Shown here piece after piece: positions 44,863 to 48,776 of a stretch of 64,000 bases of DNA. The stretch is from Mucilaginibacter rubeus. GTDB lineage: Bacteria; Bacteroidota; Bacteroidia; Sphingobacteriales; Sphingobacteriaceae. The stretch's first letter is position 1. Each line of letters starts with the position of its first letter. A program made the translations under genes and the position numbers. The stretch spans positions 620,001 to 684,000 of the forward strand of contig NZ_BMKD01000002.1 in assembly GCF_014643835.1 (NCBI RefSeq), read 5' to 3'. The notes beneath the pieces are model-generated. The model saw only the letters and a program-made list of their open reading frames with translations, did not search any database and was not told the origin of the DNA.

Positions 44863-46002
44863 ATGAGTTTACAGAAAATATTATTTGTCGACCGCGACGG
44901 CACCCTGATCAAAGAGCCTGCTGATGAGCAAATTGATTCATTTTCCAAGCTGGAGTTTTATCCGGGCGCGTTAACCTATCTGCCCAAAATAGCCAAAGAA
45001 CTTGATTTTGAACTGGTAATGGTTACCAACCAGGACGGTTTAGGAACTTCTGTTTATCCTGAAGATACATTTTGGCCTGTCCACAATTTCATCCTGCAAA
45101 CCTTTGAAGGTGAAGGCGTAAAATTTGCTAACCAGATCATTGACCGTACTTTTGCGCGTGATAATGCCCCCACCCGTAAGCCGGGCACTGCACTGTTAAC
45201 GCAATACTTAGATGCGGATAAATACGACCTGAAAAATTCGTTTACCATCGGCGATCGTAAAAACGATGTGCTGCTGGCAAAAAACCTGGGTGCAAAAGCT
45301 ATCTGGCTTAACAACAACAGCAACCTTGGCGGCAACGAGTTTAGCGAAGCAGATCATATTGATGACGTTATCGCCCTTGAAACTACCGACTGGCAAAAGA
45401 TCTATGAGTTTCTGAAACTTGGTCAGCGGGTATTTGAACATCGCCGTGCCACTAAGGAAACCGATATCTATATCAAAATAAACCTTGATGGTAAGGGCGA
45501 TGCCAAAATATCAACCGGTTTGCATTTTTTTGACCACATGCTGGATCAGATTGCCCGTCATGGTAGTATTGACCTGGAAATTACAGCCAAAGGAGATCTG
45601 CATATCGACGAGCATCATACCATTGAAGATACCGGCATTGCTTTAGGCGAAGTATTTGCCGCTGCTTTGGGCAACAAAATGGGAATTGAACGTTACGGTT
45701 TCTGTTTGCCAATGGACGATTGCCTTGCACAAGCTGCTATTGATTTCGGCGGCCGTAACTGGCTTGTTTGGGAAGCCGATTTTAAACGCGAAAAAGTAGG
45801 CGATGTGCCTACCGAAATGTTCTACCACTTCTTCAAATCATTCAGCGATGCCTCAAAAAGCAACCTGAATATAAAAGCAGAAGGACAAAACGAACATCAC
45901 AAAATTGAAGCTATATTTAAAGCCTTTGCCAAGGCAATAAAAGTGGCTGTAAAACGTGATGTAGATAAGATGGTTTTACCAAGCACTAAAGGGCTTTTGT
46001 AA
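44863..46002 (+). CDS. hisB: Bifunctional histidinol-phosphatase/imidazoleglycerol-phosphate dehydratase
   Basis: The 379-residue bifunctional enzyme has an N-terminal HAD phosphatase (residues 1-165; [57 protein letters not shown]). The C-terminal IGP dehydratase (about 190-379) has [35 protein letters not shown], the Mn/His motif [19 protein letters not shown] and [25 protein letters not shown]. It does two steps of histidine synthesis. Its stop is followed at once by a palindromic cassette that runs into hisH. Confidence 0.97.
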
Positions 46003-46118
46003 CTCCCCAGCCTCCTAAAGGGGGAGTAACTAATCAAAATGGAAACACCAGATCAAAACAATACATCGGGAACCGATAAAAGCCTCGCAGAGGCACCCCC
46101 TTCAGGGGGCGGGGGGGG
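46003..46118. mobile_element. Short palindrome-ended cassette fused into hisH
   Basis: The left end, CTCCCCAGCCTCCTAAAGGG (46003-46022) and on to 46029, starts right after the hisB stop codon. The right end, 46093-46118 (CACCCCCTTCAGGGGGC then G8), stops at the second expected codon of hisH. The ends are related inverted repeats. The 60-nt middle supplies an ATG (46039) and an open frame. Both ends resemble those of the DUF559 cassette 1.4 kb downstream, so this looks like a small non-autonomous relative. Mobility is inferred. Confidence 0.6.
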
Positions 46119-46712: not shown

Positions 46713-47462
46713 ATGTACATTATTCCTGCCATTGACATTTTGAACAAGAAGGTTGTCCGTCTTCGTGAAGGCGACTACAAACAGGTAACCGAATACGATG
46801 TTACCCTTGAAGAAATGATTGAACGCTACCAGAGCAACGGCACCAACTTCATCCACATTATCGACCTTAACGGCGCAAAAAATGATTTCAGCAATCAGCA
46901 GTACCTGTTTGACGTGATCCGTAAAACTGATATGAAGGTACAGTATGGCGGTGGTATACGCAGCATCGAAAAAGTAAAAGAGCTGATAGATGCAGGCGTT
47001 CACCGCGTTATCGTTGGCACGCAGGCACTTACCAACCCTGATTTTTTACCAGATCTGAGCAAAGAGATCTGCGGCAAAGACAAATGCTCCGACCAGGTGG
47101 TAGTAGCCATCGACGTACTTGACGAGGTAATCAAATACTCAGGCTGGATGGAAAGCTCCCCCATCAAACTGATGGATTACGTTGATAAATGCCTGGCTTT
47201 AGGTTTCTTCCGTTTCCTTTGTACTGACATTAATAAGGACGGTAAATTGGGCGGTGCCGGCATTGAGCTATACGAAAAACTGCTTGACCATTCTCCATTC
47301 ATTAAACTGATCGCCTCAGGCGGCGTTAGTTCTATGAGCGATATCGAAAAGCTTAACCGCTTAAAAGTTGAGTCGGTAGTAGTTGGCAAAGCCATATATG
47401 AGGGCCATATCACCATTGAAAACGTGAAACACTGGAATTTGGACGCGCTGATATCGATATAA
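46713..47462 (+). CDS. hisA: ProFAR isomerase
   Basis: The 249-residue half-barrel-duplicated TIM enzyme opens the ribose ring of ProFAR. Catalytic Asp8 is in IPAIDILNKKVVRLREGDY, and the second Asp lies in FLCTDINKDGKLGG. The phosphate loops are IQYGGGIRS-like (VQYGGGIRSIEKVKEL) and LIASGGVSSMSDIEKL. It is flanked by two palindromic cassettes: the second begins one nucleotide after its stop codon. Confidence 0.97.
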   Translation: MYIIPAIDILNKKVVRLREGDYKQVTEYDVTLEEMIERYQSNGTNFIHIIDLNGAKNDFSNQQYLFDVIRKTDMKVQYGGGIRSIEKVKELIDAGVHRVIVGTQALTNPDFLPDLSKEICGKDKCSDQVVVAIDVLDEVIKYSGWMESSPIKLMDYVDKCLALGFFRFLCTDINKDGKLGGAGIELYEKLLDHSPFIKLIASGGVSSMSDIEKLNRLKVESVVVGKAIYEGHITIENVKHWNLDALISI

Positions 47463-47463
47463 T

Positions 47464-47892
47464 CGCCCCCTAACCCCCTAAAGGGGGAACAATAGTTTTA
47501 TAATGAAAAGAAAAATGTTTTTGGGAGCAGATCGATTAGTCTTTCAAAACGCAGAAGCACTTCGTTATAGAATGACAGTTGCCGAAGAGTTACTTTGGGA
47601 ACAATTAAAGGGTAAACGGTTGGGTGTAAAATTTCGAAGGCAGCATCCTTTAGGAATTTACATCGCTGATTTCTATTGTCACCAACATAAATTAATCATT
47701 GAATTGGATGGAAGTATTCATAATCTTCCTGATGTAATTCAAAATGATATTGTTAGACAAAACAACTTGGTTTCCGATGGACTTAAAGTATTGCGCTTTA
47801 CCAATGACCAGGTGCTTAATAATTTAGAAAAAGTATTGGAAAATATAAATACGCAAATCAAAAGCTCCCCCTTTAGGGGGCGGGGGGGGTTA
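47464..47892. mobile_element. Palindrome-ended cassette carrying a DUF559 endonuclease
   Basis: The left end (47464-47489) reads CGCCCCCTAACCCCCTAAAG then GGGGAACAA, one to two nucleotides after the hisA stop. The right end (47864-47889) reads GCTCCCCCTTTAGGGGGC followed by G8, and stops where HisF residue 2 begins. The ends are inverted relatives of each other. Between them lies a complete DUF559 reading frame. The nuclease plus terminal palindromes suggests a self-moving unit; this is inference. Confidence 0.6.
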
Positions 47893-48642
47893 GCCAAGCG
47901 AATCATCCCCTGTCTTGACGTTAAAGACGGTCGTACGGTAAAAGGTGTAAACTTTGTTGACTTGCGCGATGCCGGCGACCCGGTTGAGCTGGCCTGGAAT
48001 TACTCGAACCAGGGAGCCGACGAGTTGGTGTTTCTGGATATTACAGCAACCGTTGAACGCCGTAAAACTATGGTTGAACTGGTGAAAGCAGTAGCCAGGC
48101 AGATCAATATCCCATTCACCATTGGCGGCGGCATTAATGAAATTGCTGATGCCGATGCACTGCTCAATGCCGGAGCCGATAAAATCTCCATCAATTCGGC
48201 CGCGGTACGTAATCCTAAGCTGATAGATGAACTTGCTAATGCCTTCGGTGTTCAGTTTGTAGTAATAGCGGTTGATACCCGTAGCATTGGTGATAAAAAT
48301 ATAGTACACCTGAATGGTGGCAGGCTGCCAACCGAGCGCCAAACACTGGAGTGGATCCTGGAGGCTGAAAGCCGTGGTGCAGGCGAAATCCTGCTCACTT
48401 CTATGGATCATGATGGCACCAAAGGCGGCTTTGATAATGGTTTGCTGAAAACTGTTAATGATGCCGTGCATATCCCGGTGATAGCCTCGGGCGGTGCAGG
48501 CAAGGTTGAACACTTTGTTGATGTATTTGAGAAAACCAATGTGGATGCAGCACTGGCGGCTTCAGTGTTTCATTATGGTGAGATTTTGATACCGGATTTA
48601 AAGCGGATATTGCAAAGCAATAAAATAGAAGTTAGGATTTGA
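47503..48642 (+). CDS. hisF: DUF559 endonuclease domain fused to HisF cyclase
   Basis: The 379-residue protein has two parts. Residues 1-120 are a DUF559 (Vsr-like PD-(D/E)XK) domain: [28 protein letters not shown] and [15 protein letters not shown], with likely catalytic D56, E67 and D69. Residues 121-129 (SSPFRGRGG) are coded by a palindrome. From L130 on it is standard His[20 protein letters not shown] with the catalytic Asp at D139, [33 protein letters not shown] and [13 protein letters not shown]. HisF cyclises the product made with HisH ammonia. The native ATG is absent (GGG-TTA) and no alternative start is near, so a fusion protein is expected. Confidence 0.93.
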
Positions 48643-48667
48643 GACAACGCGGCGGCCTTGCGCGATT

Positions 48668-48760
48668 CCCTCCCTTGGAGGGTGTAGGGAGGGGTTTCAG
48701 CAACAGATGTACCCCCCTCCCTGCCATTGCACATTCCCAATACACCCCTCCCCAGGGAGG
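48668..48760. repeat. G/C-block palindrome between hisF and hisIE
   Basis: CCTCCCTTGGAGGGTGTA (48669-48686) is the inverted relative of TACACCCCTCCCCAGGGAGG (48741-48760). An inner pair, GTAGGGAGGGGT and ACCCCCCTCCCTGC, is nested within. It fills most of the 134-nt gap. It is of the same style as the cassette ends around hisH and hisF but does not enter a reading frame. Confidence 0.75.
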
Positions 48761-48776
48761 AAATTAAAAGAAAAGA

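Follow-up and report, generated by a model that had tools for sequence, protein, structure and literature searches.

A DUF559 nuclease gene between inverted palindromes fused in frame to HisF in Mucilaginibacter rubeus: a probable REPIN-like mobile element at a start codon

Introduction

In the his operon of Mucilaginibacter rubeus, HisF is encoded in one reading frame with an N-terminal DUF559 domain, an arrangement that raises the questions of how a predicted nuclease came to precede a metabolic enzyme and how HisF itself is produced at such a locus. We analyzed these questions in a window of 64,000 nucleotides (contig NZ_BMKD01000002.1, positions 620,001 to 684,000), to which all coordinates below refer, and in related genomes. 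The answer that we regard as probable, based on comparative sequence analysis, is that a REPIN-like mobile element with a predicted nuclease of the Vsr/I-Bth0305I type took the start codon of HisF and supplies a nested one.

Architecture of the fused gene

The fusion (DUF559-linker-HisF) occupies a single open frame on the forward strand at 47503-48642, running from an ATG at 47503 to a stop codon ending at 48642 and encoding 379 amino acids. The Pfam family DUF559 (PF04480) matches residues 15-119 (47545-47859, forward strand) with an E-value of 4e-33 and 113.9 bits against a gathering score of 20.6, placing the domain within the family, while the NCBIfam HisF model TIGR00735 matches residues 129-378 from model position 1 to 254 of 254 (E 1e-103) with 346 bits against a cut-off of 294.55, as expected for a full-length HisF. 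The preliminary description, made from the nucleotide sequence and its reading frames, had reported a complete nuclease domain with the residues D56, E67, and D69, joined in frame to HisF through a palindrome-encoded linker, and the absence of the usual HisF ATG; these points were all borne out. The linker SSPFRGRGG is the translation of the right terminal arm (47866-47888, forward strand), Gly129 occupies the position of HisF Met1, and the HisF body resumes at residue 2 (residues 130-379; 47890-48639, forward strand). The left terminal arm, composed of CCCCCTAA and the hairpin CCCCCTAAAGGGGG, lies on the reverse strand at 47466-47488, abutted by the stop codon of the upstream neighbor hisA (46713-47462, forward strand, PF00977). 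The two arms form an inverted pair, and none of 500 shuffled sequences paired equally well by local alignment.

Pfam and NCBIfam scans of the fusion returned DUF559, related restriction nucleases, HisF, and other barrel families, and no protein-splicing domain indicative of an intein. A group I or II intron at the insertion is unlikely, because the frame stays open through the element. Compared with shuffled sequences, the right arm gains no extra stability in its predicted RNA fold (z -0.22), a promoter and terminator scan stayed at chance level, and a plasmid search with the locus as query gave no match. Further upstream, hisB (44863-46002) encodes a 379-residue HisB that looks like a bifunctional phosphatase/dehydratase, as judged from the open reading frame alone.

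Distribution of the fusion among related genomes

The fusion was searched in 60 relatives, 37 of them of the same genus, with G001 as the nearest genome to the window. An uninterrupted full-length fusion, the N-terminal DUF559 extension that the preliminary description had proposed to look for in HisF homologs, was found in nine of the 37 same-genus genomes (G001, G006, G017, G019, G021, G022, G028, G029, and G034), and the DUF559 at the hisF site is broken in three more (G005, G010, and G024). A second scan, in which the DUF559 part was used to search named genomes, covered the best 80 of more than 570 loci; among these, 29 adjoin hisF. The fusion is intact in 22 of them, and in the other seven (L105, L107, L110, L116, L119, L123, and L159, which are not included in the intact fusions) DUF559 is interrupted by a stop or a frameshift; one of these (L116) also lies at a contig end. 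The 29 loci belong to Mucilaginibacter, five Pedobacter, and bins assigned to Sphingobacteriaceae or Bacteroidetes. L088, which contains masked N positions, was not scored as a fusion. The 22 intact named loci and the nine same-genus genomes share two members; in the start-codon counts below, L101 and L111 were left out of the named set as duplicates of G034 and G029, and L159, apparently identical to G010, was counted once.

These data also bear on the idea that a sequencing or assembly error created the fusion at the run of eight G residues near the junction. Such a run is error-prone, but the fusion is intact in nine of 37 same-genus genomes and in the 22 named loci, whose longest G runs near the junction measure 5 to 8 (4 to 8 across all 29 named loci); of those 29 loci, themselves drawn from the best 80 of more than 570, 26 keep the frame across the junction. 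A frameshift or sequencing error is hence so improbable that we set it aside.

Predicted fold and selection of the DUF559 domain

To characterize the domain, its fold was predicted from 38 sequences (pLDDT 88) and compared with solved structures. The best solved match was the DUF559 protein NGO0050 (PDB 3hrl; TM 0.64/0.81, E 5e-7), followed by the catalytic domain of the homing endonuclease I-Bth0305I (PDB 3r3p; TM 0.63/0.76, E 1e-3), with a weaker match to Vsr (TM 0.40/0.36, E 0.1). A profile search gave the same two structures, 3hrl at 2e-26 and 3r3p at 9e-5; NGO0050 is thus the closest solved relative by both sequence and fold, with 43% identity over the aligned part. In the model of the whole fusion (pLDDT 78, pTM 0.63), linker residues 122-129 are of low confidence, and the first strand of the HisF barrel (132-139) is kept.

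The residues D56, E67, D69, and H73 are invariant in all 23 aligned intact fusions. The dN/dS ratio of the DUF559 part ranges from 0.11 to 0.28 in the eight least saturated pairs, and its median is 0.21 when the 58 pairs (of 253) whose dS is below 2 are considered; these ratios indicate that a working DUF559 protein is maintained by purifying selection.

Palindromic ends and their gene-free relatives

The ends of the element were searched by local alignment within 300 bp on either side of DUF559, with 239 control positions giving a 99th percentile of 12.8 and a maximum of 33. Inverted repeats above the control 99th percentile were present at 63 of 71 DUF559 loci, 17 of them above the control maximum; two of 73 DUF559s (L046 and L086) were skipped because of contig ends. 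The window arms score 15.5, over the control percentile and under the control maximum, and arms from other loci pair equally well with the window arm (16.5). Many of the arms also form a hairpin of their own and have a C/G-rich tail. For 30 free-standing DUF559s, protein identity correlates with arm similarity (Mantel r 0.80, 0 of 2000 permutations), as it does in the 402 of 435 pairs without a common flanking gene (Mantel r 0.75, 0 of 5000 permutations); both tests omit the nine of 71 loci whose arms scored below 14, together with L013 and L017, two broken copies at the hisF site. The correlations indicate that nuclease lineage and arm sequence travel together, even at unrelated sites.

The palindrome is also abundant away from nuclease genes. 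In 34 same-genus genomes, the hisF-type palindrome CCCCCTRAAGGGGG occurs in 0 to 101 copies per genome (49 in G001 and 93 in G021), compared with none for the backward control; these counts omit three of 37 same-genus genomes (G010, G013, and G016; 58-83% complete) and keep G019 (61%). Neighboring palindromes lying close together are in the +/- order in 35 of 39 cases and never in the -/+ order (four genomes, the G021 list being partial), mostly 42-187 bp apart, which amounts to many inverted pairs of short palindromes as in REPINs. Genomes with an intact hisF-site element contain a median of 49 copies (n=9) versus 15 in those without (n=23; one-sided p 0.003, a value that ignores kinship, with G011, G012, G025, and G031 scored as lacking a hisF-site DUF559 from the match range alone), and the two genomes with broken hisF-site copies contain 28 and 19. 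The genomes G011, G026, G027, and G032 have no hisF-site DUF559 yet 48-101 palindrome copies, which could be due to other cognate copies or to a recent loss.

Two gene-free pairs lie in the window itself; both were missed by an ungapped repeat search and recovered by local alignment. The first, at 46005-46115 on the forward strand (arms 46005-46024 and 46096-46115), is a mini-element that shares the palindrome family of the hisF-site element and lies where hisH begins; Met1 of HisH is replaced by a palindrome-encoded peptide, and the mini-element, which contains no nuclease, supplies an internal ATG at 46039. Among 25 readable loci, 11 have palindrome-like peptides ahead of HisH, two of these peptides being degenerate. 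In the hisF-hisIE gap, a pair of a second palindrome family (GATTCCCTCCC type) spans 48665-48764 on the forward strand with no gene inside, and one of 500 shuffles paired as well; its arm type is the one that flanks a clade of free-standing DUF559s (L054, L061, L066-L068, and L070).

The REPIN-like +/- order raises the alternative that DUF559 is a passenger and that a RAYT-type Y1 transposase, encoded elsewhere in the genome, moves the palindromes as ordinary REPINs. Of 34 genomes, 30 contain Y1_Tnp genes; genomes with more of these genes tend to have more palindrome copies (rho 0.42, p 0.014), a correlation as good as the one for all DUF559s (rho 0.39). However, G001, G012, and G014 together have 16 Y1_Tnp hits, and no CCCCCTRAAGGGGG copy was located on the same contig within 16 kb of any of them (five of the eight hits in G001 being on contigs without a copy), so that in these three genomes no Y1 transposase was linked to the same palindrome at that distance; G024 has 19 copies and no Y1_Tnp hit, and G009 has seven hits and no copy. 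Moreover, it is DUF559 that sits between the arms, co-travels with their sequence, and is under purifying selection, and we consider a passenger role unlikely.

Exchange, loss, and movement within the his operon

The hisF-site element behaves differently from the genes around it. Between the window and G001, nucleotide identity is 95.9% in hisA and 94.5% in hisF versus 63.3% in the DUF559 segment. Approximately unbiased (AU) tests on groups picked after these identities were known reject the window and G001 as sisters for the DUF559 DNA (p 2.7e-4), and for hisA plus hisF they reject both the window with G021 (p 2e-5) and a four-genome DUF559 group (p 3e-56). The segment has thus been swapped between lineages at one fixed site, as is characteristic of homing elements. 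In G032, G018, and G014, whose HisF is 98-99% identical to that of the window at the protein level (83-86% in nucleotides), DUF559 is absent, C-rich remnants of the left arm persist after hisA, and a different repeat (GTCATT..CGAGC) fills the hisA-hisF gap. Together with the paired arms, these observations support the initial view that the fusion arose by insertion. Members of the GTCATTGCGAGG repeat family were also seen to fill the DUF559-less hisA-hisF gap at L014-L016, L018-L020, L023, L025, L028, and L127. The DUF559 of M. straminoryzae (L127) is joined to HisH and groups among the hisF-site DUF559s (SH-aLRT 89), while hisF in the same genome retains only a scar tail, MPFENLQQTINSPFRGQGN (INSPFRGQGN), a pattern consistent with movement of the element within one operon.

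DUF559 modules in other host proteins

The fusion is unique neither to this genome nor to HisF. By HMM naming, 16 different proteins carry a DUF559 module, either fused or inserted: such modules lie in frame inside IcmF, the ligase-associated Lhr helicase, LeuRS (two sites), MetH, RecJ, HsdR, and UvrA, at the C-terminal end of TruB and an FMN-binding protein, and at the N-terminal end of HisF, ArgB, ThrB, HisA, HisH, PriA, and a nucleotidyltransferase, with SSPLGAGG-like linkers in most of the N-terminal fusions. The host frame is kept at these in-frame insertions into coding genes. The host-gene loci picked by hand from the results of the search in 60 relatives are biased to long frames; the unpicked tally in 34 genus genomes is 28 of 81 DUF559 hits in frames of at least 300 amino acids, ten of the 28 being at hisF and two of the 28 being weak hits in very long frames.

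Empty sites were traced at the Lhr site. Three of 28 readable genomes (29 tried) contain a DUF559 there, with 163-181 amino acids between two conserved motifs, and the others have 6-58 amino acids, including a palindrome-only peptide, SPALTLGDGWGGV, in G017; three genomes outside the genus have 6-12. Several kinds of in-frame repeat-like peptide were also observed in this Lhr surface loop at L175-L195 (for example, LQTANRQLKI in L179 and SRLQTQDSRLKI in L183), as if the loop were a landing site for any open repeat. IcmF of L036, L037, and L038 contains extra palindrome-only in-frame insertions elsewhere in the protein (e.g., LTPALSKGEGVKGEKSKVLSFGEDLGEA in L036). The DUF559s form clades by insertion site for hisF, IcmF, Lhr, and TruB in Mucilaginibacter, and not for LeuRS; therefore, insertions look rare and sites long-lived, and the clades also fit rare insertion followed by inheritance and recombination.

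This breadth of hosts weighs on a further explanation, in which HisF acquired DUF559 to serve a cellular purpose such as DNA repair, regulation, or defense, and the fusion is a selected bifunctional protein. The intact and conserved frame in many genomes and the median dN/dS of the DUF559 part are what such a protein would display. Yet modules of the same family occur at 16 different proteins, presence at hisF is patchy with nine broken copies, unlike sequence replaces the DUF559 segment in the closest relative, and relatives with nearly identical HisF do without it. A dedicated bifunctional enzyme is probably not what the locus encodes, given DUF559 in many host proteins and its absence beside near-identical HisF, and we rate recruitment for cellular use as very unlikely. 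Regarding defense in particular, PADLOC gives only a weak hit (E 4e-4).

The start codon of HisF

The preliminary description stated that no other start codon was close to the missing ATG; this was mistaken, since an in-frame TTG lies at 47836-47838 (forward strand), 17 codons upstream of the Met1 position. This triplet, codon 112 of the fusion, is the proposed internal start of a 268-residue HisF. Codon 112 is TTG in 35 of 39 hisF-site elements versus nine of 30 control DUF559s at the same helix position, a difference for which the Fisher p of 3e-7 is too small because the sequences are related; among 112 control DUF559s, 31 contained the helix motif, and removal of L102, a hisF-site locus cut by a contig end, left 30. 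The four hisF-site elements without the TTG have TTA at this codon (L108, L119, and L124) or an altered helix (L110); L108 has a GTG one codon earlier, in L119 and L124 an ATG precedes HisF by 9-10 codons, and L110 has a TTG at -28.

Loci in which the nuclease has decayed or disappeared are informative in this respect. Nine hisF-site DUF559s are broken (G005, G024, L105, L107, L110, L116, L119, L123, and L159). TTG is the sole kind of in-frame ATG, GTG, or TTG before HisF in seven of the nine (G005, G024, L105, L110, L116, L123, and L159), five of which have a single TTG only (G005, L105, L110, L123, and L159); among the remaining copies, L119 has an ATG and a GTG, and L107 has a TTG at -16 plus three starts further upstream. 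At 19 DUF559-less loci with a readable hisF, 11 have ATG at Met1, one has an ATG a codon earlier, and seven are tailed. The tail offers TTG only in G003, G033, G035, and G036 (a single TTG in G003, G035, and G036), an ATG in G004, a TTG and a GTG in G008, and an ATG and a TTG in G037. Judging from these codons, TTG is the only possible start of full-length HisF in 11 genomes whose DUF559 is broken or lost, unless initiation there uses a codon outside ATG, GTG, and TTG. The tail would therefore be a scar that carries the start, and in the window, likewise, HisF is likely to have a nested start, so that both the 379-residue fusion and the 268-residue HisF would be made.

The opposite view, put forward in the preliminary description, is that HisF seems to be made solely as the fusion; the TTG would then be an ordinary leucine codon. 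TTG is present at this position in nine of 30 control DUF559s as well, start codons in the phylum Bacteroidota are hard to predict, and the low-confidence linker is probably flexible in the model, so the fusion could work as an enzyme. Against this stand the broken copies and the DUF559-less tailed loci in which a single TTG precedes HisF. In view of the conserved TTG and the 11 TTG-only genomes, exclusive production as a fusion is probably wrong, and we give it a minor share of the probability.

Relation to known elements and proposed mechanism

The arrangement shares features with several described systems. Like the REP/REPIN sequences associated with RAYT transposases, as described by Bertels and Rainey 2011 (PMC3116915), it comprises many short palindromes per genome, organized in inverted pairs, with a nuclease gene linked to some of the pairs. 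Unlike in that account, the linked gene is a Vsr-like DUF559 rather than a Y1 tyrosine transposase, and the elements also lie inside and fused to genes instead of being just intergenic. REPIN/RAYT palindromes carry a GTAG or CGTC tag at the foot, according to PMC3733652. The Rickettsia palindromic elements, which the same source treats, are comparable in being palindromic insertions made in frame while the proteins stay open; in contrast, some copies here carry their own nuclease gene, one end replaces start codons, and the phylum is another. With the homing endonuclease I-Bth0305I, the element has in common a small predicted nuclease, one site per clade, and swaps between lineages, but no intron or intein was seen here, and the nuclease is palindrome-flanked and fused to a host protein. 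Among the papers listed by full-text searches of mostly freely readable literature, no title or abstract opening described a palindrome-flanked DUF559 or a DUF559-HisF protein.

In the mechanism that we propose, the element would be a unit of about 420 bp, with one small nuclease gene between two inverted REP-like palindromes, sited between hisA and hisF. It would have taken the place of the HisF start codon, and for that reason the right palindrome would be read as a flexible linker and the nuclease would be fused to HisF. The nuclease may spread its own ends by cutting DNA, followed by copying or homing, and it is probably because it drives this spread that it is under purifying selection. 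Meanwhile, ribosomes initiating at the in-frame TTG nested close to where the nuclease gene ends would make a near-normal HisF with an 18-residue tail; HisF would survive because the linker region is permissive and this start is available. Upon decay or loss of the nuclease, the tail and its start codon could persist as a scar.

Whether these elements constitute a new class, in which a Vsr/I-Bth0305I-type nuclease replaces RAYT as the mover of REP-like palindromes and gene fusion is a way of life, is in our estimate evenly balanced. If so, a translatable palindrome end and a nested start would allow the element to lodge at start codons or surface loops of essential genes while the host survives. 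DUF559, which Pfam still classes as a family without known function, would thereby gain a defined role open to experimental test, and for part of the REP-like palindromes in Bacteroidota a mover distinct from RAYT is suggested. Such insertion would also represent a route by which conserved enzymes (LeuRS, IcmF, UvrA, MetH, PriA, HisF, HisH, and HisA) gain N-terminal tails and internal domains. Annotators who meet a metabolic enzyme with a fused endonuclease domain in this phylum may be looking at the insertion of such an element, with the true start of the enzyme nested inside.
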